Positions 4,183 through 19,574 of a stretch of DNA of 32,822 nt are shown here, in pieces. The notes under the pieces are model-generated. The model did not search any database. It had not been told where the DNA came from and saw nothing but the letters and a program-made list of their open reading frames with translations. The translations under genes and the position numbers were made by a program. Origin of the DNA: Nitrospira sp. (GTDB taxonomy: Bacteria > Nitrospirota > Nitrospiria > Nitrospirales > Nitrospiraceae); assembly GCA_005116945.1 (NCBI GenBank), contig SWDH01000026.1, positions 68,197 to 101,018 on the forward strand. Direction: 5' to 3'. Every line of letters starts with the position of its first letter. The stretch's first letter is position 1.

Positions 4183-6912
<2,730 letters not shown>

Positions 6913-6920
6913 GATGCTGT

Positions 6921-6935
6921 CGTTCGGTACGAACG
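6921..6935 (-). promoter_or_regulatory. short palindrome just upstream of the secA start
   Basis: CGTTCG-GTA-CGAACG is a perfect 6-bp inverted repeat with a 3-nt centre, 9-23 nt before the secA ATG, where a ribosome site would normally be. It could be an operator or an mRNA hairpin that limits initiation. E. coli secA is translationally controlled by SecM, but no SecM-like gene is seen here. Function is a guess. Confidence 0.35.
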
Positions 6936-7082
6936 CCGATGTCTCCTGAAATATTTGCTGCAGTATACAATACCTTTTCCTTGAATCCTATAACAAGCAG
7001 CAGCTCAGACCTTCGATAATTTCATACTTAATCTCTCCTTACACCGTCAACCTTCTTCAGGCTTCCGCCCTGAGCAACCAGC

Positions 7083-7112
7083 TTGACAGGCCTAGTGAGT
7101 CTCCATTAGGAT
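7083..7112 (+). promoter_or_regulatory. candidate promoter for the TonB/mini-protein cluster
   Basis: A perfect TTGACA (7083-7088) is followed after 18 bp by TAGGAT (7107-7112), a 4-of-6 match to the -10 consensus, 29 bp before the first gene of the co-directional cluster. The spacing is acceptable for sigma-70. No metal-regulator box that I recognise overlaps it. Confidence 0.4.
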
Positions 7113-7141
7113 TCGCGGCAGATCATACTGGTCGTCTTCTG

Positions 7142-7447
7142 ATGAACCACACCGTCACCAAATTTCTGTCGATCCTCCTAGTACTCTGTGTCCTTTCCGT
7201 CGGCGGATTGGCACAGGCGCAGTCGGTCGAGCACGCCGGGCACCATGCCCAGCATCATGCTGCCACACATGGCACGTTGCTCTGCTCTTGGATGTGTGCT
7301 GCCGGGACGGTTCTCGATACGGCGGTCGTCACGTTTCAGACTGAACTCAGTCCGATTGCGCTTATCGCACCCTCCCATTTCGCGCAGCCCTCAATCGAGG
7401 CTTGCCTAACTTCTCCCAGCCGCGCCCCTCCATCTTTCTCTTTATAA
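7142..7447 (+). CDS. small secreted His-rich protein with C-x3-C and RAPP motifs (copy A)
   Basis: This 101-residue protein has a signal peptide (hydrophobic residues about 8-24, cleavage near AQAQS), a His cluster (H31, H34, H35, H38, H39, H43), then CSWMC (C48, C52), a variable middle and the C-terminal SRAPP near the end. Copies at 9269, 12874 and 19148 share the plan, so it is a real gene despite its size. The general plan recalls DUF2946-type exported proteins (His-rich, Cys pair, C-terminal RAPP/RGPP), but I cannot confirm family membership. His and Cys content suggests metal binding in the periplasm (inference). It is the first gene of the cluster, 118 bp before the beta-barrel gene. 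No strong ribosome site precedes the ATG. Confidence 0.68.
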   Translation: MNHTVTKFLSILLVLCVLSVGGLAQAQSVEHAGHHAQHHAATHGTLLCSWMCAAGTVLDTAVVTFQTELSPIALIAPSHFAQPSIEACLTSPSRAPPSFSL

Positions 7448-7565
7448 TCTTCGGTGTTCATCGGCTCGCAGCAGGGCCGTATCCATCTCTCATACGATCC
7501 ACTGAATGGGTTGTAGGGTAGGCGGGCAGGAACGATTCTTCTGGAGAGAAAGGACCAGCATCATT

Positions 7566-8672
7566 ATGGCAGGGAAACGGTTCATCATCGGGTTCATCCT
7601 GAGTCTTGCTCTCGTGGTTTTCTTATGGCCCGGTGCCCAGACCGCGCAGGCATCGTGCGGGGCGGTCAGTTGTTTTGTCGTGATCGGGTCTCAGCAACAA
7701 GTGCCTCAGGAAGGCATGTTGACGATCAACGGCATGTATAACTACACTCCCATGCGCTTGCTTAGTGGAACGACCGGTATTATCCCGGCAGCAGATCAGG
7801 CAAACCAGCGGTTGATCTTGGACCATCATAAAGAGGTCAGGACGATCACCCAAACCTATACGCTCGACATGAACTATGGGGTGACCGATCGATTTGCCGT
7901 TCAGGTGACCGTGCCGTATTTGAGGCGAAAGCACGGTCACATCGATGAAATCGGTGAGTCGACGGAGGAATTCGGTGAGCGAGCGGATTTTTTCGACAAC
8001 GGGATCGGCGACATGCGAGTCACGGCAAAGTATAATGTCTTGCCCACGCTGAGAAACTTGGTGGTTTTGGGTTTCGGTATGGATCTCCCGACCGGCGACA
8101 CGCGAGCCAGAGACAGCGGTAACCGTGTGCTAGAATCATCCGGACAACTGGGGCGTGGCCACGTCGGCTTGATCGGCTCGGTCTATCAGACCTATGAACT
8201 GATCCCGCATCGGTTGAATCAATTTGCCTATGGCAGCTATCGCCATACCTTCCGCAATCGGGACGGTTATCAATTCGGCGATGAGTTTCTCTTCAACTTC
8301 GGCGTCAATCTTGTCACCCTGCCTTGGCTGGTCGTGACCAATCAATTCAATTACCGCTACCTCGTGCATGACAATGTGCGGGCCAATCTACTACAGTCGG
8401 GGGCGCCGTTTTCCGGCGAGGAGCCTCTCGAGATCGACCCATTCGTCACCACGCGCCGAGTCTCCAGCACCGGCTCGACCTATTTTGCCTATACGCCTGG
8501 ATTCCAGATCAGCCTCGGCGAACTCGTGAGTTCTTCGTGGACGGATGCGACATCCGTCTATTTTTATACCCAGATTCCCATTGCGCGAGACGCGAATAAC
8601 AATCTTTCGCAGGGGACGAGTTTTATTTTTGGCATTACCAAGTCGTTTCAGCTGATCAAGCCGGCAGCCTGA
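7566..8672 (+). CDS. outer-membrane beta-barrel protein, transporter-like (MetA/phenol-degradation-like fold)
   Basis: This 368-residue protein has a signal peptide (FIIGFILSLALVVFLW, cleavage near AQASC) and then regular amphipathic beta strands, including YGVTDRFAVQVTVPYLRR, GIGDMRVTAKYNV and FGMDLPTGDTR. These resemble the transporter/MetA-pathway family of uncharacterised barrels. The mature N-terminus begins SCGAVSC, a Cys pair close to the cleavage site. The ATG at 7566 is chosen over an in-frame ATG at 7506 because the signal peptide starts there and an AAAGGA lies upstream. It is followed after 35 bp by a TlpA gene. It may form a pore or sensor for the uptake system, but its substrate cannot be read from the sequence. 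Confidence 0.72.
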   Translation: MAGKRFIIGFILSLALVVFLWPGAQTAQASCGAVSCFVVIGSQQQVPQEGMLTINGMYNYTPMRLLSGTTGIIPAADQANQRLILDHHKEVRTITQTYTLDMNYGVTDRFAVQVTVPYLRRKHGHIDEIGESTEEFGERADFFDNGIGDMRVTAKYNVLPTLRNLVVLGFGMDLPTGDTRARDSGNRVLESSGQLGRGHVGLIGSVYQTYELIPHRLNQFAYGSYRHTFRNRDGYQFGDEFLFNFGVNLVTLPWLVVTNQFNYRYLVHDNVRANLLQSGAPFSGEEPLEIDPFVTTRRVSSTGSTYFAYTPGFQISLGELVSSSWTDATSVYFYTQIPIARDANNNLSQGTSFIFGITKSFQLIKPAA

Positions 8673-8707
8673 ACCTATTGAAGCCGGTTGAGCGGAAGGA
8701 AGGGCAT

Positions 8708-9262
8708 ATGAAGAAGACGGCCAAAATCGCAGTGATGGGGCTGATGCTGGCAGCCTGCGCGTATAGCCCAGTGCTGGCGCCGTCGGTCTGGAGCATGGGT
8801 TCGCGAGTCCCGACGGTCGGGGTGCAAGCAGAGGACTTTCGGCTCACCGATCTGGCAGGCAAGGAACAGAGCCTAAGCCAGTATCGCGGCAAGATCGTGC
8901 TCCTGAACTTCTGGGCCACCTGGTGCAAGCCCTGCACGACCGAAATGCCGGCGATGCAAGCCAGCTTTGATAAGCTGCGCGATAAGGGCTTCGTGGTATT
9001 GGCCATCAATGAATTGGAAGATGAGGCCAGAGTGCGTGAGCATATCAAGCAATATGGCCATACATTCCCGGTCCTGATGGACCCCGACAACAAAGTGGCC
9101 AATCAATTCGGCGTGGTCGGATTACCTGTGAGCGTGTTCATCGATCAGGAGGGCCGCGTACAGGAATACATTAAAGGCGGGCTGCTCACCGAACAGAAGA
9201 TCGATGAAATCGTTGTACGGATTCAGAAGCAGGAACCGGTAAAAGCAGCGGCGCTGCGATAA
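8708..9262 (+). CDS. TlpA-type thioredoxin-fold lipoprotein (WCKPC)
   Basis: This 184-residue protein starts at the ATG at 8708, after a GGAAGGAAGG site. The leader holds a lipobox, LAAC with the Cys at 17, predicting a periplasm-facing lipoprotein. A thioredoxin/AhpC-TSA fold follows, with FRLTDLAGKEQSLSQYRGK, LLNFWATWCKPC (C73, C76) and the cis-proline loop VVGLPVSVFID. TlpA/ResA proteins reduce disulfides of exported proteins, for example in cytochrome c or copper-protein maturation. The next gene, 6 bp on, encodes a C-x3-C small protein, so that protein or the Cys-bearing barrel could be its substrate (inference). A second TlpA at 12329 sits in the same relation to another small protein. 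Confidence 0.9.
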   Translation: MKKTAKIAVMGLMLAACAYSPVLAPSVWSMGSRVPTVGVQAEDFRLTDLAGKEQSLSQYRGKIVLLNFWATWCKPCTTEMPAMQASFDKLRDKGFVVLAINELEDEARVREHIKQYGHTFPVLMDPDNKVANQFGVVGLPVSVFIDQEGRVQEYIKGGLLTEQKIDEIVVRIQKQEPVKAAALR

Positions 9263-9268
9263 CAGCCT

Positions 9269-9568
9269 ATGACTCATAAGATTCGACAATGTGTTGTTGG
9301 AGGGTTCGCGCTCTGGCTTGTGGCGCTCAGCGGGATCGTGTACCCGCAGCTCTCCGCCCACATCGGACAACATCAGCATCACAACGCGGCGACACACGCC
9401 ACTGCGCTCTGTTCATGGCTCTGCATCGCCGCCGACGCGGTCGAAGGCCCTTCGATCCAACTCGCTCCCGTTGAACAAGTCGCCCTCATAGAACTGGAAG
9501 TCTTCGAATCGCAGATCAGTCCGGTCCTCAATCTTCAGCCCCCTTCGCGGGCGCCTCCTCTCACGTAG
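9269..9568 (+). CDS. small secreted His-rich protein with C-x3-C and RAPP motifs (copy B)
   Basis: This 99-residue homologue of copy A has the same motif register: H31, H35, H37, H38, H43, then CSWLC at C48 and C52, with the shared core NAATHATALCSWLC. The N-terminus is a signal peptide (hydrophobic about 9-26). It ends PPSRAPPLT. It starts 6 bp after the TlpA stop codon, so co-translation is likely. The alignment of His and Cys with copy A at identical positions, while the rest of the protein differs, indicates selection on these residues. A role in periplasmic metal binding or as a TlpA thiol partner is inferred. The 172 bp to tonB hold no other convincing gene. Confidence 0.7.
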   Translation: MTHKIRQCVVGGFALWLVALSGIVYPQLSAHIGQHQHHNAATHATALCSWLCIAADAVEGPSIQLAPVEQVALIELEVFESQISPVLNLQPPSRAPPLT

Positions 9569-9740
9569 CACCCCTTCTTTTCTCATTTTCAGAGTGTATT
9601 GGTGACAATGGCCGCGACTCCTTCGGCCTTTGGCTCGACGGCTGTTGAAATAGCCGTTGACATGGTCTTCTCCAGGTCGATTGACGAAGAATGGCCGAGC
9701 GTAACGTTCAGCGAACATTCACATTCGTAGGAATCAGGTA

Positions 9741-10658
9741 ATGGTCAGTCCAAATACACAGTATCGCTTGCAAGGATGGATGGTGTCCGCGACCGTTCAT
9801 GGACTGGCGCTGACCGTAGCCCTCGGGCTTATGACGCAGGTCAAACCGGTCGTGCCGAAAGAAGTGTTCACGTGGGACGTCGCATTGGTCGAACCTCAAC
9901 GGCCTCACAAAACGGGTCAGGCTGAAATCGAGCCAACCCGGGAACCTGTGAAGCCGACTCCGACCCCGGCTGTTCCTAGCCCTCGTCAGCCCAAAAAGCT
10001 CACGCAGAACGTGCAACCTCGCGAGGTCACCCAGATTGTCCAACGCGAAAACCCGCCAATTGAAGAGACCGTGGCGGTGCAAACGAGAACGGAACCAGTC
10101 ACGCCGGTCATAGAGCAGCAGCCTCCGGAAGTTCAGCAGATCGAACAGTCCGTGGACGAGCCAGTTGTCCCTGTCGTGCAACAAGAAATTGCGACCCAGC
10201 CCGAGATAACAGAGACGCCCATTCAACCAGTCGAAGCTCGCGTCGTTGAGACGGCTCCTGTGACACACGATCCCGACCCTCCGGCTCCCCAAGCGCCGGC
10301 TCAATCTGTCGCGCAGGAGTCCGCGCCGCAGACGCCGACGGCAACTCATTCGACTCCTGCTGTCAAAGCCGATCATGGCTGGCTGGCTGAATCGCTGAGG
10401 CGGAGACTGGCTGAGATCAAACGCTATCCTAGTTCTGCGCGCCTCAACGGCTGGGAAGGGAAGGTGGTGCTACGCGCCGTCATTCGAGCCGATGGCCATT
10501 TGTCAGAGGTGAAGGTGCATCGAAGCTCCGGCCACGAGACGCTCGACAATGCGGCCATTGAAGCCATCAGGCTGGCCTGTCCGCTGCATATGCATCGAGC
10601 GCTCGGCACGTCCGAAGTCGCAGTCTATGTGCCGATGGTCTATAGCCTGGGGAGTTAG
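9741..10658 (+). CDS. tonB: energy transducer TonB
   Basis: This 305-residue protein has the TonB layout. A single N-terminal membrane helix (about 14-33) contains S16-x3-H20, the conserved SxxxH face that meets ExbD. A Pro/Glu/Val/Gln-rich periplasmic spacer fills about residues 50-205, and the C-terminal TonB domain (about 210-305) includes IKRYPSSARLNGWEGKVVLR and VKVHRSSGHETLDNAAIEAI. TonB carries energy from ExbBD to outer-membrane receptors. The full receptor (13304) and exbBD (16021-16810) are in the same transcription direction, so the set can be self-contained. The start is the ATG at 9741 with AGG-rich sequence just upstream. Confidence 0.95.
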   Translation: MVSPNTQYRLQGWMVSATVHGLALTVALGLMTQVKPVVPKEVFTWDVALVEPQRPHKTGQAEIEPTREPVKPTPTPAVPSPRQPKKLTQNVQPREVTQIVQRENPPIEETVAVQTRTEPVTPVIEQQPPEVQQIEQSVDEPVVPVVQQEIATQPEITETPIQPVEARVVETAPVTHDPDPPAPQAPAQSVAQESAPQTPTATHSTPAVKADHGWLAESLRRRLAEIKRYPSSARLNGWEGKVVLRAVIRADGHLSEVKVHRSSGHETLDNAAIEAIRLACPLHMHRALGTSEVAVYVPMVYSLGS

Positions 10659-10678
10659 TTGCAGGAAGGAGATGTGCT

Positions 10679-11032
10679 GTGTCCTTGAAGTTGGACCAAG
10701 GATTGAAGATGGTGCGAGCCGCGATGGTGTTCGGCCTGCTAGGCATGGTGGCTCTACCGGTCGGTGCAGAAGAGAAACAGAACGTGATGAGCGAAAAAGG
10801 TCGGACTGAACGGATTCAAGAACTTCAGCGGAAACGGGCACACATCGAGAGTGAATTGCGCCAGCTCCGCTCCCAGCCTGAAGGGACAGCGCGATCCACG
10901 GTTCCGCGTTCTGAATTTTCGGACCAACCGACAAGAAGCATGAAAGAATCTCTGGAGTCTGTGCCAGGGGTAAGCACGCGGCAAGGTGCAAGCGGGCGCG
11001 ACGCACAAATATCCATTCGTGGATCGAAATGA
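10679..11032 (+). CDS. truncated TonB-dependent receptor: signal, coiled coil and start of plug only
   Basis: This 117-residue protein starts at a GTG (10679) placed 7 nt after AAGGAG. A signal peptide (cleavage near VGAEE) and a charged coiled-coil stretch (RIQELQRKRAHIESELRQLR) are followed by the start of a plug domain, PTRSMKESLESVPGV to ISIRGSK, where it stops. The full receptor at 13304 has the same plan and nearly the same plug opening (PTRTVKESLESLPGV, IMIRG). There is no sign of barrel sequence downstream; the next gene starts at once, with a 4-bp ATGA overlap. It is either a receptor remnant with its barrel deleted or a retained periplasmic stub that could bind TonB or other partners. 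The tidy coupling argues against simple recent decay. Confidence 0.66.
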   Translation: MSLKLDQGLKMVRAAMVFGLLGMVALPVGAEEKQNVMSEKGRTERIQELQRKRAHIESELRQLRSQPEGTARSTVPRSEFSDQPTRSMKESLESVPGVSTRQGASGRDAQISIRGSK

Positions 11033-11040
11033 GGCCTACC

Positions 11041-12327
11041 ATGATCAAACGGACAATCAGCACTCAAAGACTGGCCTGGATGGTCGGAGTTGCGTTCAGT
11101 GTCGTCTCGTTCGTACCGATGGCATTGGCCGAGTCTGATCAATCGTTGCGGTTTGGCCTGAAACTGACGACCGATCATCGGGTCAGGGCAGTAGTCGGCC
11201 CCTCCGTCCAGATCGACAACGAGGGCCGTATTTCGCTTGCCTGGGTAGAAGAGGACAAAGACTTACGAACGGTGCTCTATGCGAGAACTGAAAAGCCGGA
11301 AGGACCGATCGGCACTCCGGTCAAGGTGAACCAGCCGACCGAGGCGCCTTACATGCGACAAGAAGCGCCTGCTCTGGCACTCGCTGGCAACGACATATTC
11401 CTGACATGGGCCTTGACCCATCCGAAACTGACGCCCGACAAACCGTTCTCGAACGAATTGCGACTCAGCCGATCCACGGACGGGGGCAAAACATTTCTGC
11501 CATCAATTCTGGTCAACGACGATGAGCAGGTCATCGGCCACAGTTTCGACTCGATCCACGTCGCTCCCGATGGCGTGGTGCATGTGACCTGGATCGATGC
11601 GCGTGAAGGCAAGAAAGAATCCGGCACGTTTGCGGCACGCTCAATCGATCGTGGACGCACCGTCTCAAAGAACCTCAAAGTGGATGAGGACACCTGTGTC
11701 TGTTGCCGAACCTCTCTCACAAGCGAGCTGGACGGAACTCTGTATGCGGCCTGGCGCAAGGTTCTCCCCGGCGAGATCCGCGAAACGGTCGTGGCCCGTT
11801 CCACAGACGGTGGAAAAACGTTTTCTGCGCCAGTGATTGTCGGCCACGACAAGTGGGTATTCCCTGGCTGCCCACATCGGCCCGCCTCAATCGGCACAGA
11901 TCGGCTCGGACGGCTCTATGTGGCCTGGTACACCGAAGGCGTCGATGAAACCCCGGCGGTGTTTCTCGCCTATTCGGATGACCGGGGAAAGACATTCTCG
12001 CCTAAACAGAAACTGAACGTGTCCAAAGGAACCTTCCCGGATCATCCACAAATGGCGGTCGATCCTGAAGGTCGGCTCGTTCTTGCCTGGGAAGAGCAAT
12101 CTCCTGTCCGGCGTGAAATCGTGATGAGCGTATCTCTTGACCGTGGACAGACGTTCAGCGCGCCGCAGAAATTGAATGAGAAGAAGGGCCAGACACCGTC
12201 CCTTTCAATCAATTCGAAGGGGCTGGCCGCCCTAGCGTGGATGGAGCATGCGATGCCGGCTCATCGGATGGTGGTGCAAACGCTTCAGCTACCGACGGCA
12301 AAGGTTCTCGCGAGGCAAGAGCCGTAG
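11041..12327 (+). CDS. secreted BNR/Asp-box repeat (sialidase-like fold) protein with CVCC motif
   Basis: This 428-residue protein has a signal peptide (VGVAFSVVSFVPMALA-ES). An in-frame ATG at 11029 overlaps the previous stop, but 11041 has GAGG at 6 nt. It contains at least five Asp-box-like repeats (STDGGKTF, SIDRGRTV, STDGGKTF, SDDRGKTF, SLDRGQTF), the mark of a six-bladed sialidase-like propeller. Between repeats 2 and 3 is DEDTCVCCRTSL (C219, C221, C222), an unusual Cys cluster for this fold. No sialidase active-site Arg triad can be claimed, so the name should describe the fold only. It sits directly before a TlpA gene (1-bp gap), which could keep the cysteines reduced. A metal-binding or docking role is inference. 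Confidence 0.78.
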   Translation: MIKRTISTQRLAWMVGVAFSVVSFVPMALAESDQSLRFGLKLTTDHRVRAVVGPSVQIDNEGRISLAWVEEDKDLRTVLYARTEKPEGPIGTPVKVNQPTEAPYMRQEAPALALAGNDIFLTWALTHPKLTPDKPFSNELRLSRSTDGGKTFLPSILVNDDEQVIGHSFDSIHVAPDGVVHVTWIDAREGKKESGTFAARSIDRGRTVSKNLKVDEDTCVCCRTSLTSELDGTLYAAWRKVLPGEIRETVVARSTDGGKTFSAPVIVGHDKWVFPGCPHRPASIGTDRLGRLYVAWYTEGVDETPAVFLAYSDDRGKTFSPKQKLNVSKGTFPDHPQMAVDPEGRLVLAWEEQSPVRREIVMSVSLDRGQTFSAPQKLNEKKGQTPSLSINSKGLAALAWMEHAMPAHRMVVQTLQLPTAKVLARQEP

Positions 12328-12328
12328 C

Positions 12329-12877
12329 ATGCCAGCGTCAATGAAACACACCGTGATCGCAATGGCGCTCTCTCTTGTGAGCATCGTTGCGGCTGGTCCT
12401 ACACTGGCCGGCGATCCCTTTGTCTCGCTCAAGATGAGCCGGTTGCCCGAGGGGAGCATGGCAGCGCCCTTTGAGCTCACGACGCTGGACGGCAAGCTCC
12501 TGAAATCGAGCGAGTTGGCAGGGAAGGTTGTGCTTGTCAACTTTTGGGCTACCTGGTGTGGACCCTGCAAAGAAGAAATGCCGTCGCTTGCGCGATTGCA
12601 AGAGCAACTGGACCCTGCACACTTTACCATGTTGACCGTGACGACGGACCTCCAGCGCCAGGGCATCACCCACTTTCTCTCTCAGTTGGGAGTCAGCCTG
12701 CCGGTGCTTTTCGATGAAGACCAAGAAGTCTCACGGTCCTTCATGGTGCGCGGTCTTCCGACCACGATCGTGATCGCTCAGGATGGTGCGCTCGTCGGAC
12801 GAGCGGTTGGGCCTCGCGCCTGGGATAGTCCTGAGGCAATAGCGGTGATGCGGCACGTCATGGAGAGAGGGAAATGA
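12329..12877 (+). CDS. TlpA-type periplasmic thioredoxin-fold protein (WCGPC)
   Basis: This 182-residue protein has an N-terminal signal/anchor (VIAMALSLVSIVAAGPTLAG) and a thioredoxin fold: FELTTLDGKLLKSSELAGK, LVNFWATWCGPC (C77, C80) and the cis-Pro loop VRGLPTTIVI. Unlike the first TlpA at 8708 it has no lipobox. The ATG at 12329 is 1 bp after the BNR-protein stop; ATG 12341 is an alternative. It overlaps the next gene, a C-x3-C small protein, by 4 bp (ATGA). It probably reduces or exchanges disulfides in the neighbouring Cys-containing exported proteins. The sequence differs clearly from the first TlpA outside the active site, so this is an old duplication or separate acquisition. Confidence 0.9.
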   Translation: MPASMKHTVIAMALSLVSIVAAGPTLAGDPFVSLKMSRLPEGSMAAPFELTTLDGKLLKSSELAGKVVLVNFWATWCGPCKEEMPSLARLQEQLDPAHFTMLTVTTDLQRQGITHFLSQLGVSLPVLFDEDQEVSRSFMVRGLPTTIVIAQDGALVGRAVGPRAWDSPEAIAVMRHVMERGK

Positions 12878-13197
12878 GGAAGGCTTTTGTTCCGCTCGCC
12901 CTGACTCTTGCGGCACTCTACCTGACCCTCTCGGTCAGTGCCGTGACCTGTCTCTTTGCACACGAGAGCGAGTCACGCGCATCCCATCATCATACAGGCG
13001 GAACGGCGAAGTCCTCTCTATGCACTTGGGCCTGCGACGCCAATCCGACCGTTGACTTTTCTATAATCACGGCGGAGACGCAACAGCATCCCTTTGTGGC
13101 GATGCTGCCGTTGGCCGAATCTTCCACCTCACATTTTCTTTTCCAGCAATCAGCTCGGTCCCGCGCACCTCCTTATTCGTATATCGCATCCACGTAA
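12874..13197 (+). CDS. small secreted His-rich protein with C-x3-C and RAPP motifs (copy C)
   Basis: This 107-residue member of the family has a signal peptide (about residues 4-28), HHH at 38-40 with H30 nearby, CTWAC (C50, C54), and the C-terminal SARSRAPPYSY. An extra Cys lies at 26, inside or just after the signal. It is translationally coupled to the TlpA gene by an ATGA overlap, repeating the TlpA-small protein pair at 8708-9568. The complete TonB-dependent receptor follows 106 bp later. The aromatic Trp at the centre of the Cys motif is shared with copies A and B. Function is unknown; metal binding or delivery to the receptor system is inferred. Confidence 0.7.
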   Translation: MRKAFVPLALTLAALYLTLSVSAVTCLFAHESESRASHHHTGGTAKSSLCTWACDANPTVDFSIITAETQQHPFVAMLPLAESSTSHFLFQQSARSRAPPYSYIAST

Positions 13198-13303
13198 CGT
13201 TCATCGGATTTCTCCCTGCACTGACAGAGCTGTAGCGTGCTCGGCTTGCCTCTGCACGGAGGCGGCTATCCGTTTCATTCATCACATCAAAGGAGTATGG
13301 GCT

Positions 13304-15607
13304 ATGGTGTCGTTCAAGAGAGTGAGGCATATCATTGTGGCTGTCGCAGTGCTCGGAGGCGCTGTGACTCTGGATCACATCGCACTGGCACAAGAACCAG
13401 CCGCGGCAGAGGCCGTGCAGCAAGGATCGAGAGAGCAACAACTTCGTGAACAGCTCAAAGGCATCTTGCAAGAGCTGGAGGAACTCAAGCAGGGTCGTGA
13501 GAACACCCTGCCTCCGGCCGAACAGCCCAAGACGGTCACTGAAAAGGTGTCGCCGGAACAATCGCAGGTGACCGGGGCAATGCCGGAATATGAGCTGAGC
13601 GATACGAGCATCGTGAGCACGCGCTTTCAGAAGCGGCCGGAAGGCCTGTCACTATCCGCGACGGATCCGTCGGAAACGGATTCCCAGCCGACCAGAACGG
13701 TGAAGGAGTCGTTGGAATCGCTCCCCGGCGTGGTCTTGCGTCAGGCAAACGGGCCGCGCGATTTCAGCATCATGATTCGTGGCCAAGGCGCCAAGACGAC
13801 CTTCGCGATTCGGGACATCAAGGTCTACGAGGACGGATTCGTTCAAACGCAATCCGATGGGTTATCCAGGCTCGATATACATGACCCCTGGTTTATGAGA
13901 AGCACCGAAGTGATTCGCGGCGCCTCGTCGTCTCTCTACGACAACTATGCCCTGGGCGGTATGGTGCATTTCAGGACCAGGCGCGGCAGCGATATCAATG
14001 GAGCCGAGGTATTTGGAAGCGGCGGGTCGTTCGGGTACCATAAGGAAGCCCTCGCCGTCGGCAAGCAATATGAAAATCTCGACGTCTCCCTCTTCGCCAG
14101 CAACGTGGGGGAAGACGGATTTATCCGCCACAGCAATTATAGTACGCAAACAATCAACCTGAATCTTCGATTCAGGATCGACGACAAGCAGAATTTCTAC
14201 TTTAAGGCCATCACCAATTGGCTGGACACCCTCGTACCCACCCGTTTGACCCAGGCGCAGTTCACGTTCGATCATCGGCAAGCCGGCAACGCCCCGCAAC
14301 TCGGGCAACGTCGGCTCGACCGGCGCACGATTGTCGGAGGCATCTACGAGCGGCAAATCAATGCCAATACGGTCCTCACGCTGGAAGCGGACTACGATGT
14401 GAAAGACATCAACCAGACGTTCAACCAGATCGGCGACAGCATCAATCCCAATTTCAAGCACTACGCCGACCTGCGGCACGATGGGCACTTGTTCGATATG
14501 CCACTGCGGAGTTATGTCGGCTTCTTTCTGAATAATATGGAGCAGGAATCGCAGAGCTTCCAGAACCTGGCTGACGGCAGAGGCACCAGAGGTAGACTCC
14601 TCCAGAATTCGCGTGGAACGATCAGGAACATCGGCGGCCGATTCCGCGAGGAATTAGAAATTGTACCGAACGTGATCCTTGCGGGCGGATTGGGCTTTGA
14701 GCAATCCATGTTGAGTGTCCAAGCGATTAACTATGGACCCGCAGGGGTCGATCCTCCATCTCCTACAAGCGCAAGCCGCACGTTCACCAACTGGGCCCCG
14801 GAAATGGCATTAACGTGGAAACCCACGGAGGCCTATCGGCATTGGGTTCGAGCCTCCACAGGGTATGGGATTCCTGGTTTCGGCAATGTCCTGAGAGATC
14901 CCGTCACAGGACTGCCGGGTACGAACTTCAACCTGAAGCCGCAGAAGAATGCCAATTTTGAAATCGGAACGGAGTCCAAGCTGACCGAGACCCTGACGGT
15001 TCAACTCGTCGGGTTCTGGACGTTCTTTAAAGATGAATTGATTGCGCGAGCAGTGTCGGGAACGAACGTGGCCACGGTAAACGCCGACTCCTCTCAATAT
15101 CGAGGGATTGAGGCCTTCTACGATTGGCGTCCGATGACAGGCCTGCGACTCTCCGGGGCCTATACCCACATTGAAGCTAAATACACGAATTTTTCAGACC
15201 AGATCAATACCGCGGCCGGATTTTTGGTTCGGGACGGGAAGAACGTGCCAAACGTCCCGACCGACGTCTTTAACTCAAAAATCGCCTACGATCATTGGCC
15301 GACCGGTTGGGGCGCCTGGGTTGAAGGCAGTTATTACAACAGCTACTTCCTGAACAACAGCAACACGTTCAGTATCCCCTCTTATGTGGTCGCCAATGTG
15401 AATATTCACAAGAATTTTGAGTTGAACAACTCCTGGTTCCGGTTCGCCAAATTCTTTTTCGAGGTGGATAACATCGCGGATAAGAAATACGCCGCGTCTG
15501 GCCAGGTGATCGTCGGTGAAACACCCGGTCAAGCTGCACTCCAACAGGCCTTCTTTGCGGGCTATGGGCGGGCTTTCTATGGAGGCGTGACGCTGGGACT
15601 GTTCTAG
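13304..15607 (+). CDS. TonB-dependent outer-membrane receptor
   Basis: This 767-residue receptor starts at the ATG at 13304, 8 nt after AAAGGAG; in-frame upstream codons to 13094 overlap the small protein gene. A signal peptide (cleavage near IALAQ) is followed by a coiled-coil stretch rich in Glu/Gln/Leu, unusual before the plug. The plug (about 130-235) includes PTRTVKESLESLPGVV, IMIRGQGAKTTF and VIRGASSSLYDNYALGGMV. A 22-strand barrel should fill the rest, ending in the aromatic GGVTLGLF typical of Bam substrates. The ligand cannot be told from the sequence; the plan resembles metal-chelate or heme/copper-type receptors rather than the siderophore type at 19575. The operon supplies tonB and exbBD. 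Confidence 0.93.
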   Translation: MVSFKRVRHIIVAVAVLGGAVTLDHIALAQEPAAAEAVQQGSREQQLREQLKGILQELEELKQGRENTLPPAEQPKTVTEKVSPEQSQVTGAMPEYELSDTSIVSTRFQKRPEGLSLSATDPSETDSQPTRTVKESLESLPGVVLRQANGPRDFSIMIRGQGAKTTFAIRDIKVYEDGFVQTQSDGLSRLDIHDPWFMRSTEVIRGASSSLYDNYALGGMVHFRTRRGSDINGAEVFGSGGSFGYHKEALAVGKQYENLDVSLFASNVGEDGFIRHSNYSTQTINLNLRFRIDDKQNFYFKAITNWLDTLVPTRLTQAQFTFDHRQAGNAPQLGQRRLDRRTIVGGIYERQINANTVLTLEADYDVKDINQTFNQIGDSINPNFKHYADLRHDGHLFDMPLRSYVGFFLNNMEQESQSFQNLADGRGTRGRLLQNSRGTIRNIGGRFREELEIVPNVILAGGLGFEQSMLSVQAINYGPAGVDPPSPTSASRTFTNWAPEMALTWKPTEAYRHWVRASTGYGIPGFGNVLRDPVTGLPGTNFNLKPQKNANFEIGTESKLTETLTVQLVGFWTFFKDELIARAVSGTNVATVNADSSQYRGIEAFYDWRPMTGLRLSGAYTHIEAKYTNFSDQINTAAGFLVRDGKNVPNVPTDVFNSKIAYDHWPTGWGAWVEGSYYNSYFLNNSNTFSIPSYVVANVNIHKNFELNNSWFRFAKFFFEVDNIADKKYAASGQVIVGETPGQAALQQAFFAGYGRAFYGGVTLGLF

Positions 15608-15641
15608 CTGGTTGGAACAGGCAAGGTCTTTTCGGCCAGAT

Positions 15642-15666
15642 AGGGGGGGCGCCCATGCAGCCCCCT
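15642..15666 (+). terminator. candidate weak terminator or attenuator hairpin after the receptor gene
   Basis: AGGGGGGGC (15642-15650) and GCCCCCT (15660-15666) can form a 7-bp GC stem with a 9-nt loop, 35 bp after the receptor stop. No T-run follows, so it is not a classical intrinsic terminator; it may slow polymerase or protect the upstream mRNA end before exbBD. Confidence 0.35.
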
Positions 15667-15727
15667 CCTCTACCGGAATGTTTTCACAACATGATGAGTG
15701 TGACAACGACGGAAAGCGAGGTGCAAG

Positions 15728-15907
15728 ATGAACAAGCAATTGCTTCGAGTCAATGAAGCGGCGGCAGTCTTGAATGTCAGCCGCTGGACGGTCTATCGGT
15801 GGGTGGAGGAAGGGCGGTTAAGTGCCACGAAAATCGGCAGGCAGAGCTTGCGCGTGATCGGCAACTCGGTCGATAAACTGATCGCTGAGAATCGGACCGA
15901 TCACTGA
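15728..15907 (+). CDS. small excisionase/MerR-like helix-turn-helix DNA-binding protein
   Basis: This 59-residue protein is nearly all a winged HTH of the excisionase type (HTH_17-like): LRVNEAAAVLNVSRWTVYRW, then EEGRLSATKIGR and SLRVIGNSVDKLI. Such proteins bind DNA as Xis factors, plasmid/TA regulators or small transcription factors. There is no integrase near, so a regulatory role is more likely than excision. It stands between the receptor gene and exbB, in the same direction, and could control this cluster. The start is the ATG at 15728, with a weak upstream site (GAGGTGCAAG). Confidence in the fold is high; its target is unknown. Confidence 0.82.
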   Translation: MNKQLLRVNEAAAVLNVSRWTVYRWVEEGRLSATKIGRQSLRVIGNSVDKLIAENRTDH

Positions 15908-16020
15908 CGCCAGCTAGCACAGGCAACGGGTAAAGTGCGGCGAAACACGATATCTCGCCCGCATGAGTCATGAGTAGTGCGGGCCAGGGGCAGCAGTTGT
16001 AGAAAGGACCCTGTGTTTCG

Positions 16021-16446
16021 ATGGAAGGACTCAAGGAACTTGTCGAGTATGGCGTCATCGGACTTTTGCTGGGATTGAGTGTCTGGGCCATAGGGGTGGC
16101 GGTGGAGCGCTGGCTCTTCTACCGGCAGGTAGACCTACGTCAGTTTCCCACGCTGGATCTCTGCGAGGTCACGTTGACGAAGAAGCTGGTCGTCATCGGG
16201 ACGGTTGCGGCCAATGCGCCATATATCGGACTACTCGGGACGGTCCTCGGCATCATGCTGACGTTTCACACGATGGGTACATCTGGCACGTTGGTGGTGA
16301 GTTCAATCATGATCGGCCTGAGCCTCGCGCTCAAGGCCACCGCAGCAGGCCTGCTGGTCGCCATTCCTTGCGTCGTCATGAACAACGTACTCCGGCGTCG
16401 TGTCAGCGAACTCCTGGCGCAATACAAGACGCAACATGGATCGTGA
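16021..16446 (+). CDS. exbB: short ExbB/TolQ-family proton channel protein
   Basis: At 141 residues this is much shorter than E. coli ExbB (about 240). Three membrane segments are visible: about 8-30 (YGVIGLLLGLSVWAIGVAVE), 55-80 (IGTVAANAPYIGLLGTVLGIM) and 88-118 (SSIMIGLSLALKATAAGLLV). The A-x-x-IGLLGTVLGIM block and the Thr/Ala-rich third helix are diagnostic of the MotA/TolQ/ExbB channel. The large cytoplasmic loop is reduced to a few residues, giving a minimal form seen in some TonB loci. It overlaps exbD by 11 bp. ExbB and ExbD use the proton gradient to power TonB. An AAAGGA lies about 15 nt upstream, rather far from the ATG. Confidence 0.9.
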   Translation: MEGLKELVEYGVIGLLLGLSVWAIGVAVERWLFYRQVDLRQFPTLDLCEVTLTKKLVVIGTVAANAPYIGLLGTVLGIMLTFHTMGTSGTLVVSSIMIGLSLALKATAAGLLVAIPCVVMNNVLRRRVSELLAQYKTQHGS

Positions 16447-16810
16447 ACTGAATCAAATCAACGTCATCCCGCTGGTGGATGTCATGTTGGTGCTCCTGGT
16501 CATCGTATTGACCAGCGCCACCTTCATTAGCGCAGGGCAGATTCCAGTCAATCTGGCGAAGGCCGCGGCAGCGAACGAGCGGCAAGACACTCCTCGCATC
16601 ATTACCGTCACAGCAGAGGGTGAATTGTTCGTGAACGATCGTCCTGTCACCGACGAGCAACTCGATGCCACGCTCAACAGCCATCCTCGCGAGTCGCTGG
16701 TCCTGGTCCGTGCCGACAGAGTCACGCGGTTGGAACGGTTCGTCACCGTCGTCGATCGTGTCCGCGGACTCGGCTTTCACCAGGTCAGTTTGGAGGTCAC
16801 TCGTGCCTGA
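16436..16810 (+). CDS. exbD: ExbD/TolR-family proton channel protein
   Basis: This 124-residue protein has a short cytoplasmic N-terminus (MDRELNQINVIPLVDVMLVL), one membrane helix (about 11-32) with the essential Asp at 15 of the V-D-V-M-L-V-L-L motif, and a periplasmic domain (about 50-124) ending LGFHQVSLEV. The Asp carries protons during TonB energisation. The ATG at 16436, inside the end of exbB, gives the expected N-terminus; a longer frame from 16400 has no support. It is the last gene of the cluster; downstream is a toxin-antitoxin promoter. Confidence 0.93.
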   Translation: MDRELNQINVIPLVDVMLVLLVIVLTSATFISAGQIPVNLAKAAAANERQDTPRIITVTAEGELFVNDRPVTDEQLDATLNSHPRESLVLVRADRVTRLERFVTVVDRVRGLGFHQVSLEVTRA

Positions 16811-16911
16811 GTTGAAAAATCCCTAGCTGCCGGCTCCTGACAGAATCCAGGATTGAAGCCAGCGATCGCCCCTTCCAACGTATGTCCTTCCGGCGGTGTA
16901 GGCGCTATGTG

Positions 16912-16958
16912 TTGACACGCCCCTCCAGTCCGGCATAATGTAGGCTCATCACTACATT
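16912..16958 (+). promoter_or_regulatory. promoter and palindromic operator of the Phd/PIN toxin-antitoxin pair
   Basis: TTGACA (16912-16917) and CATAAT (16934-16939) are separated by 16 bp. Overlapping the -10 and the start site is a perfect inverted repeat, AATGTAG (16937-16943) and CTACATT (16952-16958), with an 8-bp spacer. A GGAGGA ribosome site (16961-16966) follows before the ATG at 16973. This is the expected position for autorepression by the antitoxin-toxin complex. Confidence 0.75.
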
Positions 16959-16972
16959 GAGGAGGAACTCCT

Positions 16973-17251
16973 ATGCAGATGGGACTGCGCGAGGCGAATC
17001 AGAAATTTTCCCAGTTGGTGAAGGCCGTCAAGGAAGGCAAGGAAGTGCTGTTGACGGAACGTGGCAAGCCTCTGGCTGTCGTGAAGCTGATCGGAGCCTC
17101 CGATGACGCGAGCTCCGTCATTCGGAGGCTGGAGTCTGCCGGGTTGTTGCGCGCGGCATCGAACAGCCGTGCACTTCCAGCGTGGAGCCCTCGATCAGTG
17201 CGCGGCGTGCCGTTGTCCCACACGGTTGTCATGGACAGAGAAGAACAGTGA
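16973..17251 (+). CDS. Phd/YefM-type antitoxin
   Basis: This 92-residue protein has the Phd/YefM N-terminal DNA-binding fold: LREANQKFSQLVKAVKEGKE, then VLLTERGKPLAVVKLI. The C-terminal half, which would neutralise the toxin, is variable (RRLESAGLLRAASNSRALPAW). It pairs with a PIN toxin through a 4-bp GTGA overlap. Its promoter and operator lie directly upstream. Pairing of a Phd-fold antitoxin with a PIN toxin is well known. The start is the ATG at 16973, 6 nt after GGAGGA; an in-frame ATG is also at 16979. Confidence 0.9.
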   Translation: MQMGLREANQKFSQLVKAVKEGKEVLLTERGKPLAVVKLIGASDDASSVIRRLESAGLLRAASNSRALPAWSPRSVRGVPLSHTVVMDREEQ

Positions 17252-17688
17252 CGCCGCGTCATCGGGCCTACTTCGATACCAGCGTGTTGGTGAAACGGTA
17301 TATCAAAGAGAAGGGCTCAGGCCCCACGCGTCGGCTGCTTCAACGGTTTCGGTTTCTCTCTTCAGCGATCGCGCCGGTTGAAGCCCTGTCGGCGCTCAGC
17401 CGGCGACGGGCATGCGGTGAACTTACGCCGCGGGATTTTCTTGCCATCCGTTCGAGGCTGGACAAGGATCGGGCCTATTGGGAATTAGTGGAAGTGAGCG
17501 AGCCTGTCCTCCGGCACGCCGAAGCGCTGGTCCAGAAGACGGATGTAAGAACGCTCGACGCCCTGCACATTGCGTCAGCAATCATGTTTCAAACAGCCTC
17601 AGGACTGACGATTCCCTTCATCACCAGCGATGCCAAACAGCGCGACGCGGCCCAAGCCATGGCCTTGACCGTCATCTGGGTGGAATAA
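17248..17688 (+). CDS. PIN-domain ribonuclease toxin (VapC-like)
   Basis: This 146-residue protein starts at the GTG at 17248, overlapping the antitoxin stop (GTGA); a longer upstream frame from 17182 lies inside the antitoxin. Catalytic acids are in place: D10 (AYFDTSVLVKRY), E45 (APVEALSAL), D104 (TLDALHIASA) and D128 (FITSDAKQRDAA). All four match the PIN nuclease centre, so the toxin appears intact. It presumably cuts RNA when its antitoxin is lost. The C-terminus VIWVE is near the usual end for this family. Confidence 0.9.
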   Translation: MTPRHRAYFDTSVLVKRYIKEKGSGPTRRLLQRFRFLSSAIAPVEALSALSRRRACGELTPRDFLAIRSRLDKDRAYWELVEVSEPVLRHAEALVQKTDVRTLDALHIASAIMFQTASGLTIPFITSDAKQRDAAQAMALTVIWVE

Positions 17689-17885
17689 AGAAGCGCTTTC
17701 GGTCGGGCGACGCCGATCGTTCCTTGAACCAGAGTCTGGAGGCACTGGTCCGCGCCCAATGGGACGCGCGGTGGTGCCGCGCCTCTCGATGACAATCGAA
17801 GACGCGTTTCTTAGCCTCCATTCCGACGGACTTGCCATCACCATTCCCACTGACCTCAGCGATCAAGACCGCCTTGCCCACCGTC
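17689..17885. other. intergenic sequence without a recognised gene
   Basis: This stretch follows the PIN toxin and ends where the duplicated leader sequence begins. A GC-rich hairpin GCGCGG-TGGTG-CCGCGC (17766-17782) is present without a T-run, so its role as a terminator is doubtful. Open frames here lack starts, ribosome sites or recognisable motifs. Confidence 0.4.
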
Positions 17886-18130
17886 AAACTTGTAGCATTT
17901 GTGAGCATCCGTAATCAGACGTCGGTAGACAAGCCGGGGAGCATGGGCTAGAAACGTAGGTCCGTACTCCTGCGTCTTATGGATCGAGTCACGGATATGA
18001 ATTGGAAGAAACTGATCTCGATCCTTCTGCTGCTGTCGATGTACTGGTGGTGCGATCTGCCTCCTTTCTGAAGCCCTGTCGAGCTCGCCGAGTACTCTGT
18101 CCTATCGCCTGAAGGATCGCGCTGCGAGTC
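17886..18130 (+). repeat. direct repeat, decayed copy of the leader and 5' part of small-protein gene D
   Basis: Sequence from about 17886 matches 19046-19286 with scattered changes and small indels. Shared stretches include CAGACGTCGGTAGACAA, GAGCATGGGCTAGAA and CACGGATATGAA. The match covers about 110 bp of leader plus the signal-peptide part of the small protein. Duplication followed by decay of this copy is the simplest reading. Confidence 0.7.
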
Positions 18131-18225
18131 CGCCCCCTTTCTTGCCCATTACCCTCAGAGCTTTTCCGGTCATCCTCTTCGAGATGATCCCCGCGTCGCG
18201 CGTGAACCGGATACGACTGATTGAT
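17997..18225 (+). pseudogene. decayed copy of the small secreted C-x3-C protein gene
   Basis: From the ATG at 17997 the frame reads MNWKKLISILLLLSMYWWCD then LPPF and stops at 18069-18071, 24 residues in. The intact paralogue at 19148 reads MKWKTLIVVVLLLQVCVY and continues for 110 residues. Nucleotide similarity continues past the stop (CCTATCGCCTGAAGGATCGC against CCTGTCGCCTGAGGGGTCGC) and fades near 18225, so this is a remnant of a full gene. The fifth trace of the family in this window. Confidence 0.65.
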
Positions 18226-18254
18226 GACATTGATCTCCGCGTCTTCATGGAGGT

Positions 18255-18491
18255 ATGATGGCCACCATGAACTTCTTGGCTCGCATCACGATCAATCCTG
18301 CCCAGTGTGGAGGGCGCCCTTGCATCCGTGGCATGCGAATGAGAGTCAAGGATCTGTTGGACCTCCTCGCGGCTGGAGTCGCCCCTGAAGAAATTCTGCG
18401 AGACTACCCGTATCTTGAGAAAGAAGATATTCAAGCCGTACTCGAATTTGCTGCCGCCCAGGCCGATCACGTCATGCTCCGTGCCGGATGA
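18255..18491 (+). CDS. DUF433-family antitoxin
   Basis: This 77-78 residue protein begins at ATG 18255 or, better spaced from GGAGG (18249-18253), ATG 18258. It contains INPAQCGGRPCIRGMRMRV, the signature opening of DUF433, then a VKDLLDLLAAGVAPEEIL helix and DYPYLEKEDIQAVLEFAAAQ. DUF433 proteins are small HTH antitoxins usually paired with DUF5615 PIN-like toxins. That partner does follow here, with an ATGA overlap, but is broken. The antitoxin itself looks complete, so it is now an orphan and may still act as a regulator. Confidence 0.9.
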   Translation: MMATMNFLARITINPAQCGGRPCIRGMRMRVKDLLDLLAAGVAPEEILRDYPYLEKEDIQAVLEFAAAQADHVMLRAG

Positions 18492-18819
18492 ACTTTCTCA
18501 TTGACGCGCAACTTCCTCCAGCACTCGCTCGCCTGATCATTTCCTTCGGTCACCATGCTGTTCACGTTGAAGAAGCCACGCTGCTTCTCGCCGCTGATGA
18601 AACCATCTAGGACTATGCCCTACAGCATCAGCACATTATCATCACGAAAGACGAAGACTTTAAGAACATGCTGTTACTGGCCACCACAAGCAAAACGCCC
18701 GTGGTGTGGGTGAGAATCGGAAATTGCTCGAATGCCGCGCTGACCGGTGGTTCCTACCACTCTTTCCTCAAGTACTCGAATACCTCCAGGCAGGAGAGTA
18801 CCTTATCGAACTGTACTAA
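18488..18819 (+). pseudogene. DUF5615 PIN-like toxin, inactivated by a stop codon and a frameshift
   Basis: The ATG at 18488 overlaps the DUF433 stop codon (ATGA). The frame reads MNFLIDAQLPPALARLI, then ADETI, then a TAG at 18608-18610 where the family has Trp (DDxxIWDYAL; TGG to TAG is one change). It resumes as DYALQHQHIIITKDEDF and VVWVRIGNCSNAAL. Near 18741-18746 one base is missing; only after a frame change does the usual end appear, RWFLPLFPQVLEYLQAGEYL to a TAA at 18817-18819. Both lesions fall in otherwise well-preserved sequence, so decay is recent. A sequencing error could explain one lesion but hardly both. Confidence 0.88.
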
Positions 18820-19045
18820 TGGGCGATCGTGAGTAGAAGCCAACAGCGCTCCTTTCACTCCATTCCATCATCATTCCTTCACCACCTCCGTCATGCCACA
18901 CCAGCGCAGGATGCCCTTCTTGCGATTTCTGCTGGTGCTGTTGATCCCTGCTGGACACAGACGCTGCTCGCGGAATGACGCAACAATCGAATGTTTCAGC
19001 AGGCTGCGAGAATCCGGCTTCAGCCTACAGACCTGTGTCGTGTCG
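18820..19045. other. intergenic sequence without a recognised gene
   Basis: Between the broken toxin and the second copy of the leader repeat I find no gene with a ribosome site or known motif. Short frames on both strands have low-complexity or shadow character. Confidence 0.35.
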
Positions 19046-19286
19046 AAAACTGTAGCATCCGTGAGCAGACGTCGGTAGACAAACCGGAGAGCATGGGCTA
19101 GAAGCGTGTGGTTCACGCTCCTGTGTCTTATGGATCGAATCACGGATATGAAATGGAAAACACTAATTGTAGTTGTCCTGCTGCTACAAGTATGCGTGTA
19201 CAACGGGTTGACTCCTCTCTGGACCGGGGTCGAACTGGCCAAACACTATGTCCTGTCGCCTGAGGGGTCGCACTGCAACGAAGTCT
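19046..19286 (+). repeat. direct repeat, intact copy of the leader and 5' part of small-protein gene D
   Basis: This is the partner of 17886-18130. The leader part (19046-19147) contains AGCGTG-TGGTT-CACGCT (19102-19118), a 6-bp hairpin not preserved in the decayed copy. In both copies one frame of the leader reads QTSVDKP(E/G)SMG and then TAG, which might be the end of an older gene or a leader peptide. The leader could carry regulatory sequence for gene D. Confidence 0.6.
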
Positions 19287-19480
19287 GCGTGCATCCCTCT
19301 TCCTTGATCGACCCGCCTCTCGAATCAGCTTCACTCGATAGTTCGTATAATGAACCTGTCCCCCCTGAGCGCCTCATCGTCCTGCTGCCTCATCCACACG
19401 CCGCGCGTGACCGACCTCCATCGCTATTGTGTTCGACCAGCCATAGTCTCCGTGCGCCTCCCACGCTGATTCTCGCGTAA
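19148..19480 (+). CDS. small secreted protein with C-x3-C and RAPP motifs (copy D)
   Basis: This 110-residue protein is a divergent member of the small-protein family. The start at 19148 (MKWKTLIVVVLLLQVCVY) gives a clean signal peptide; in-frame ATG 19130 and upstream codons are less likely. It has H33, SHCNEVCVH with C43 and C47, and the C-terminal SLRAPPTLILA. The His cluster is weaker than in copies A-C and the Trp of the Cys motif is replaced. It precedes the siderophore-type receptor at 19575 by 94 bp, as copy C precedes the other receptor. No strong ribosome site is visible. A decayed copy lies 1.15 kb upstream. Confidence 0.6.
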   Translation: MKWKTLIVVVLLLQVCVYNGLTPLWTGVELAKHYVLSPEGSHCNEVCVHPSSLIDPPLESASLDSSYNEPVPPERLIVLLPHPHAARDRPPSLLCSTSHSLRAPPTLILA

Positions 19481-19574
19481 CGCAGTCCTACGCCCATTGC
19501 CAGTCGTTGAGTTTTTCTTTCGAGGCCCTTCCTCGGAGAGAGACGATGGCCCGTGGGAATCAAGGAGGAACATC

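Follow-up and report, generated by a model that had tools for sequence, protein, structure and literature searches.

Probable metal-sensing leader peptides with Cys/His heads and RAPP ends recur within a TonB gene cluster of Nitrospira

The window analysed in this study is a 32,822-nucleotide (nt) stretch of Nitrospira sp. DNA (contig SWDH01000026.1 of assembly GCA_005116945.1, a 3.39 Mb draft genome). The open reading frame (ORF) list and a reading of the sequence place 13 genes at positions 7142-16810, all on the + strand, which encode TonB, ExbB, ExbD, a TonB-dependent receptor (TBDR1), an outer-membrane barrel, a beta-propeller, two thioredoxin-like proteins (TlpA1 and TlpA2) and several small Cys-containing proteins, among others (Table 1). 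An earlier sequence-only reading had described 12-13 co-directional genes, with a 6-bp gap between TlpA1 and the small protein behind it (R2) and a 4-bp overlap between TlpA2 and the next (R3); the gene number and both junctions were as described, and family scans agreed with its gene identities (TonB_C, Plug/TonB_dep_Rec, AhpC-TSA/Redoxin for both TlpAs and BNR_2 for the propeller). Two further small proteins of the same kind, encoded by the first gene of the cluster (R1, starting at 7142) and by the ORF at 19148-19480 (R4), had been overlooked, and neither is preceded by a TlpA.

All four small proteins carry a hydrophobic start (judged by eye from the aligned sequences), a C-x3-C motif and a C-terminal RAPP, and in R1-R3 the head is also rich in His. 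C-x3-C and RAPP are separated by 41, 41, 42 and 54 residues in R1, R2, R3 and R4, respectively, and the gene that follows (barrel, tonB, TBDR1 or TBDR2) begins 94-172 nt downstream, where leader and target starts are computed choices. Across 34 stretches from approximately 25 genomes of the genus and the window's own genome, the spacing was 41 or 42 residues in 61 of 62 leaders (30-70 were allowed). Of 30 TlpA2 genes examined, 27 were followed by a leader, and in 20 of the 27 the two genes overlapped by precisely 4 nt; together these figures indicate a pattern beyond chance. A profile (A2) was derived from the four window leaders together with others initially picked out by a RAPP/Cys pattern, so that motif counts among its matches lean towards the motif. 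Within the genus it matched in 31 of 32 genomes; across the order, 143 of 146 genomes had 1-10 matches each, among them all 122 with a completeness of 90% or more and a contamination of 5% or less. Of 165 hidden Markov model matches among 7,694 ORFs from 74 fetched stretches, 157 had R[AG][PG]P no more than 14 residues from the stop, while the other eight comprised three RSPP, two RAPP with longer tails, one RARPPP, one RGPS and one unrelated frame. Dropping a single frame (L067:10158) and merging two repeats gave the set of 162 leaders used below. In 79 publicly named loci, taken from the best 80 of 94 relatives and therefore not bounding the distribution of the leaders, at least one leader was present in 75, and 190 of 195 matches had R[AGS][PG]P within 20 amino acids (aa) of the end. 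These records are labelled Nitrospira, Nitrospiraceae, Nitrospirales or Nitrospirota/Nitrospirae and include N. moscoviensis and N. defluvii; one is titled uncultured Nitrosospira. In both N. moscoviensis and N. defluvii, leaders were seen next to propeller and TBDR1 genes. When two leaders were compared with plasmids by tblastn, one had no match and the other matched only a Candidatus Manganitrophus plasmid (E 0.2).

The His/Cys head and RAPP are the parts under the strongest purifying selection, which is weaker in the linker that joins them. The ratio of nonsynonymous to synonymous substitution (dN/dS) was calculated by region from 24 R1, 13 R2 and 6 R3 sequences, the R1 orthologues being 101 codons long and gapless. 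It was 0.07, 0.09 and 0.16 in R1, R2 and R3 for the His-CxxxC head and 0.29, 0.36 and 0.35 for the linker, compared to 0.07, 0.01 and 0.00 for RAPP and its tail. A constrained head and end, joined by a linker of fixed length but free sequence, is predicted for a nascent-chain sensor, whereas a TlpA client has no such need. The sequence-only reading had interpreted the small proteins as partners of TlpA in copper delivery, and in the corresponding alternative they are periplasmic copper-binding clients whose cysteines the adjacent TlpA keeps reduced. The adjacency is indeed kept (a leader follows TlpA1 in 26 of 34 cases, in addition to the TlpA2 counts given above), and the C-x3-C motif and His-rich head are under strong selection. 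However, RAPP is as constrained as the head, and 109 of the 162 leaders have something other than TlpA as nearest upstream neighbour (TlpA 53, opposite-strand secA 32, others or none 77). In addition, no TlpA match lies beside R4 or beside the leaders of four genomes that have one leader each, and a single leader type can head different genes, the R2 type preceding tonB or a second barrel and the R1 type preceding a barrel, a TlpA or tonB. It is also relevant that the product of CruR, a copper-responsive upstream ORF (uORF) of Bordetella pertussis, is reported as undetected by proteomics (PMC9426467), and that exported CutF of Rhodobacter capsulatus is described as rapidly degraded (PMC9973294). 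The partnership with TlpA was accordingly abandoned as the main explanation, and a client role is very improbable.

Most of the genes headed by the leaders belong to the outer membrane. A same-strand gene lies within 450 nt of 128 of the 162 leaders: barrel (37), TBDR (31), tonB (11), lipoprotein propeller (9), TlpA1 (7), an HMA-like cluster (6), propeller (5), a cytochrome P460-like cluster (4), helix-turn-helix (HTH)-like (3), PepSY_TM (1) and other (14). This tally leans towards barrel and propeller, as the 74 stretches were fetched around barrel, propeller and leader matches; its TBDR class rests on TBDR1, and the cluster names rest on one scanned member each (Pfam named single members as HMA, Cytochrome_P460 and PepSY_TM), except that the three HTH-like targets were named by reading. 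The PepSY_TM gene is headed by an R4-type leader. Two more leaders occur in the window's own genome, one before a cytochrome P460-like gene (L063:2699-3919) and one before an HMA gene (MerP/CopZ-like; L064:9766-10871). In each of the four one-leader genomes inspected, the gene behind the leader encodes a barrel of 382-392 aa with 5.6-6.4% Met and 2.9-4.1% His, compared to 7 Met in the 368 aa of the window barrel; the Phenol_MetA_deg cut-off was exceeded by both of the two barrels scanned. A fifth genome has a leader followed by a 405-aa protein with similar Met/His motifs and no Pfam match. As judged from sequence, the set of targets (TBDRs, tonB, HMA, PepSY_TM and Met/His-rich barrels) favours copper. 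The earlier suggestion of a metal system, perhaps for Cu(I), is supported in so far as the leader type and the HMA, PepSY_TM and Met/His-rich barrel genes headed by such leaders point to a conserved TonB-powered outer-membrane system linked to a metal that is probably copper.

It is possible, although we consider it doubtful, that the metal sensed is not copper, or that it differs between leaders through exchange of their heads, an explanation that overlaps with the one favoured here in everything except the metal. The R4 leader (CNEVC, 54-aa spacing) precedes a receptor that exceeds the TonB-siderophore cut-off, and a further leader type has a head (CQWVQHH) with one Cys and several His and precedes a TBDR; His-only CutF-like proteins have also been reported before HupE/UreJ genes (PMC9973294). 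On the other hand, the R1-R3 class carries a C-x3-C head of the copper type, and PepSY_TM, the family headed by an R4-type leader, is also described in a B. pertussis copper operon (PMC12914433). The CQWVQHH variant, which ends in RAPP, was seen at G000:C23:153709-153993 (L136:9644-9997) and at L151:7777-8130. Both inspected copies head a large TBDR, which in L136 has a carboxypeptidase-regulatory domain; these two receptors were counted under other in the tally above. Approximately 30 low-scoring profile matches, about one per genus genome, may be of the same type.

R1 lies divergently beside secA (4183-7142), and RAPP arrest peptides elsewhere regulate sec genes. Leaders of this kind could monitor protein export, as do SecM and VemP, or the thiol-redox state, rather than a metal. 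RAPP arrest peptides have been described upstream of sec and thioredoxin-domain genes (PMC12992588), and opposite-strand secA is the nearest neighbour of 32 of the 162 leaders. Nevertheless, the leader does not head secA, which has the opposite orientation, the targets include TBDRs, tonB, HMA and PepSY_TM, and the head is a conserved His-rich C-x3-C; sensing of export or redox state is decidedly improbable.

At the junction between R1 and the barrel, conservation extends to the RNA. The gap is nearly constant in the genus (mostly 113-124 nt), and in an alignment of 21 sequences that spans the leader end, the gap and the barrel start (mean column identity 66%), RNAalifold predicted pairing between the codons that immediately follow RAPP and the purine-rich region where ribosomes would bind for the barrel gene, and placed a separate hairpin in the gap. 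The structure has 21 pairs in two helices, with 93.4% of cells paired and seven pairs changed on both sides; this covariation count was reached by 0 of 500 shuffles, although the structure was derived from this very alignment, and relatedness alone can lift a count above that of shuffles even where no structure exists. When a ribosome was placed at the Pro-Pro in the model, the mean probability that the purine run is unpaired rose from 0.09 to 0.49, with an increase in all 16 orthologues. Masking of the Shine-Dalgarno (SD) sequence by the leader tail is supported for R1 and the barrel. It is hinted at for R4-type leaders, in which a modelled stall moved SD exposure from 0.26 to 0.50 in R4 of the window (with the target start taken one base late), from 0.20 to 0.72 in L139 and from 0.12 to 0.55 in L140. 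CCTCC was enriched in the leaders (104 of 160, compared to 208 of 756 background Pro-Pro pairs). The first Pro codon pair was rejected as a clean anti-SD signal, since the sequences are akin to one another and low-G codon choice would explain the enrichment equally well.

The anatomy, conservation, position and selection pattern of the leaders and the R1-barrel RNA helix, as established from sequence, are consistent with a single explanation: the small Cys proteins are probably RAPP-type metal-sensing arrest leaders that gate the next gene, several of them acting serially in one operon. A ribosome translating such a leader would stall at the final Pro-Pro, at which point the His/C-x3-C head, 41-42 residues back, is predicted to sit just outside the exit tunnel. 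Under copper scarcity this stall would persist and the next gene would be made. At the R1-barrel junction, the stalled ribosome would occupy the leader codons and keep them from pairing with the ribosome-binding region of the barrel, while at other leaders it may shield C-rich RNA from Rho. Binding of a metal by the head, probably Cu(I), would release the stall and turn the next segment off. Because leaders precede barrel-TlpA1, tonB-propeller-TlpA2 and TBDR1-exbBD, a single operon, presumably co-transcribed, would be split into segments, each with its own gate, of a TonB-powered system for the uptake and handling of copper. More tentatively, and with doubts that slightly outweigh our confidence, the Nitrospirales may possess a leader platform outside the DUF2946 model, in which one arrest chassis (signal, fixed linker and RAPP) bears exchangeable metal heads, occurs in 1-10 copies per genome and provides serial checkpoints within operons that gate the channel, the TonB motor and the receptor, with the tail codons serving as an anti-ribosome-binding site at least for the barrel.

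In addition to the limit on the covariation count, several observations weigh against this interpretation. When an 8-nt SD window was used, a modelled stall raised exposure across 31 barrel junctions only from 0.31 to 0.40 (5 of 31 exceeded +0.2), and in R1 of the window it lowered exposure from 0.53 to 0.40. Across 112 junctions the mean excess unmasking was only 0.043, own compared to swapped tail-SD duplexes lay at percentile 0.58, and no conserved RNA fold was found at the R3-TBDR1 junction; based on the 112-junction figures and the foldless R3-TBDR1 junction, SD masking was rejected as a mechanism for all leaders. Leader 3' ends do carry a stretch in which C exceeds G (median 0.263, compared to 0.090 at 738 other gene ends; at least 0.15 in 94% of leaders and 30% of other gene ends), but the excess is mostly amino-acid composition, which accounts for an expected 0.092 of the observed 0.126. 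The synonymous C>G z averaged 0.87 and exceeded 2 in 10% of leaders compared to 14% of control genes, with no synonymous excess in R1, R3 or R4 of the window, and strong synonymous selection for a Rho site was rejected because the C>G stretch mostly follows amino-acid content. No same-strand gene was found within 450 nt of 34 of the 162 leaders, some at contig ends and some not (R2 in L048). The Pfam model DUF2946 (PF11162) matched in 0 of 148 genomes of the phylum at E <= 0.001, while a Caulobacter control matched. R1 scored 16.5 bits against a cut-off of 23.7 (E 0.015), R2 and R3 had no match to it in the Pfam scan, and one of 23 A2 members matched at E <= 0.01 (best 4.7e-4); homology between the leaders and CruR is not established, because DUF2946 fails to recover the leaders. 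Finally, the adjacency of TlpA and leader is conserved beyond the needs of pure leader function. A secondary link, for example TlpA keeping the leader cysteines reduced, is retained as a possibility because the adjacency is itself conserved.

TBDR1 has YncD/PqqU as best solved relatives (E 1e-42), and the copper-receptor model TIGR01778 (OprC-type) is absent among its 22 NCBIfam families at E <= 1, both of which likewise count against copper uptake. It is conceivable, if unlikely, that TBDR1 imports a non-metal compound such as pyrroloquinoline quinone and that the leaders do no more than make its use depend on copper status; the NCBIfam PqqU model (NF041535) scores 190 bits, far under its cut-off of 1200, and conserved Cys/His motifs are present in two other proteins of this operon, the barrel and the propeller. 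The barrel had no Pfam or NCBIfam match. Its model (pLDDT, the predicted local distance difference test, 81, but < 50 in the Cys stretch) resembles 5o67 (E 5e-15) and 4rl8 (E 1.8e-11) in Foldseek and thus the fold of FapF/COG4313 outer-membrane channels, from which it differs by an identity of at most 15% among the matches listed and by a CG-x3-C near the N-terminus that is invariant in 35 aligned sequences. The propeller (pLDDT 89.7) shares its predicted sialidase- and lectin-like fold and its BNR repeats with BNR/sialidase-type propellers, but it differs from them in its CxCC and CPHR motifs, each retained in at least 90% of 34 sequences, and no NCBIfam assignment exceeded its cut-off. Between tonB and the propeller gene, a secreted-type, plug-like mini-protein (10709-11032) is similar to the N-terminus of TBDR1 and could be in contact with TonB or ExbD. 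It ends in SIRGSK in seven of nine aligned sequences, including that of the window, while the other two end in RGSGK and RGSGASAGSR; a decayed receptor was rejected on account of this common end. The gene is not at the corresponding place in several stretches (L052, L055, L058, L148).

Table 1. Features of the locus by position in the window (leader roles as proposed in the text)
Feature	Position	Strand	Remarks
R1 leader peptide, 101 aa	7142-7447	+	Hydrophobic N-terminus, His-rich, CSWMC, 41-aa linker, RAPPSFSL end; heads barrel
Leader-tail arm of conserved helix	7432-7444	+	Begins at last base of second Pro codon of RAPP; complementary to barrel ribosome-binding region
Conserved 8-bp hairpin in R1-barrel gap	7494-7514	+	Arms 7494-7501 and 7507-7514
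Purine-rich ribosome-binding region of barrel	7542-7555	+	Pairs with 7432-7444
Outer-membrane beta-barrel, CG-x3-C near N-terminus	7566-8672	+	FapF/COG4313-like channel fold (model)
TlpA1, WCKPC thioredoxin-like	8708-9262	+	Family scans
R2 leader peptide, 99 aa	9269-9568	+	CSWLC, 41-aa linker, RAPPLT end; heads tonB
TonB	9741-10658	+	TonB_C match
Short plug-like protein	10709-11032	+	Coiled-coil-like stretch and first part of TBDR plug, ISIRGSK end; Plug E 1.4e-7
BNR-type beta-propeller, CxCC and CPHR motifs	11041-12327	+	BNR_2 match
TlpA2, WCGPC thioredoxin-like	12341-12877	+	Alternative in-frame start ATG at 12329
R3 leader peptide, 107 aa	12874-13197	+	CTWAC, 42-aa linker, RAPPYSYIAST end; heads TBDR1; start overlaps TlpA2 stop by 4 nt
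TBDR1, TonB-dependent receptor	13304-15607	+	Best solved relatives YncD/PqqU
HTH_17/excisionase-type DNA-binding protein, 59 aa	15728-15907	+	Family scan
ExbB	16021-16446	+	TIGR02805 (ExbB2) over cut-off
ExbD	16436-16810	+	Best TIGR02804 (ExbD_2), below cut-off (95 vs 123 bits)
Decayed second copy of R4 leader upstream region and start	17904-18071	+	Direct repeats 91% and 79%; open for 24 codons only
R4 leader peptide, 110 aa, beyond the 13-gene cluster	19148-19480	+	CNEVC, 54-aa spacing, RAPPTLILA end; heads TBDR2
TBDR2, siderophore-type receptor	19575-21962	+	TIGR01783 over cut-off

The expectation that these genes co-occur elsewhere held in part. The barrel was found in 28 of 32 genus genomes and the propeller in 84 of 146 order genomes, including 10 of the 12 from the genus in that set, with gene order and leaders largely kept; the locus is nonetheless modular, with R1-barrel-TlpA1 lacking an adjacent tonB-propeller block in several genus stretches (e.g. 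L045, L048, L051). Leader-headed units are repeatedly accompanied by small HTH genes of the excisionase type (15728-15907 in the window, L064:11105-11350, L069, L207 and L251), which may be regulators of leader-headed operons; the window copy was identified by family scan and the others from sequence or BLAST labels. Downstream of exbD, an antitoxin-like and a PIN-domain-like gene (16973-17688), named by eye, form a possible VapBC pair, and the decayed duplicate of the R4 start lies 1.15 kb upstream of R4. An Rfam scan of 6800-20000 gave 0 matches at E <= 0.1, and promoter and terminator scans gave signal near shuffle level.

Nitrospira are major nitrite oxidizers and include complete ammonia oxidizers (comammox), whose ammonia-oxidizing enzyme is thought to need copper. 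No study of the control of Nitrospira copper uptake was found among the papers listed on Nitrospira or comammox, copper and TonB. The presence of this family in 143 of 146 order genomes, where it is missed by DUF2946, suggests that family surveys underestimate how widespread and diverse metal-sensing nascent peptides are, and the repeated internal leaders provide a testable case of an operon divided into separately gated segments.

Among the papers listed on Nitrospira copper, TonB, arrest peptides and CruR, no title or start of an abstract describing this locus was found; in the text considered here, a 2025 EMBO J survey names Nitrospirota once, in its frequency analysis (PMC12992588). Among known systems, the SecM/VemP/ApdA/ApdP peptides of RAPP and RAGP type share the RAPP/RGPP end, and their arrest is reported to expose the next ribosome-binding site, as proposed for R1 and the barrel; they differ in that they monitor protein localization and head sec/yidC, while the leaders described here have a His/Cys head and mostly outer-membrane targets (PMC10987492). 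CutF, described as an exported, cis-acting leader, likewise has CxxxC, a proline-rich C-terminus and, comparable to the R1-barrel junction, a stem-loop over the next ribosome-binding site, but it turns its multicopper oxidase gene on with Cu, and its end is reported not to have stalled ribosomes strongly when tested (PMC9973294). The sign of the response here is probably opposite to that of CutF, because the targets are of the uptake type.

The closest parallel is the CruR-CrtA/BfrG-CrpH operon, in which a small ORF, of exported type in CruR, likewise lies upstream of TonB-dependent receptor genes (PMC9426467, PMC12914433, PMC13038864). CruR has a Cys motif followed after 45 residues by RAPP, and both motifs are reported to be needed; perception of copper relieves the RAPP arrest and leads to Rho termination before the TonB-dependent transporter gene, so that Cu turns it off (PMC9426467). 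Arrest at its RAPP has been demonstrated in vitro (PMC12992588). The leaders described here share the two Cys followed by RAPP at a fixed spacing (45 aa in CruR, 41 or 42 here), the C>G RNA stretch at the leader end and, for one R4-type leader, a position before PepSY_TM. They differ in having C-x3-C instead of CXXC, in heading also tonB, barrels, TlpA and propellers, and in the conserved helix over the ribosome-binding region at the R1-barrel junction, while CruR works through Rho. In addition, CruR genes are reported to be overwhelmingly first in their operons (PMC9426467), with CrtA operons being cruR-first in > 40% (PMC12914433), whereas here R1 is first but R2 and R3 lie inside the same predicted operon, 6 nt behind TlpA1 and overlapping TlpA2. 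The repeated internal leaders, and a family that the Pfam model DUF2946 does not recover, are departures from the published CruR system.

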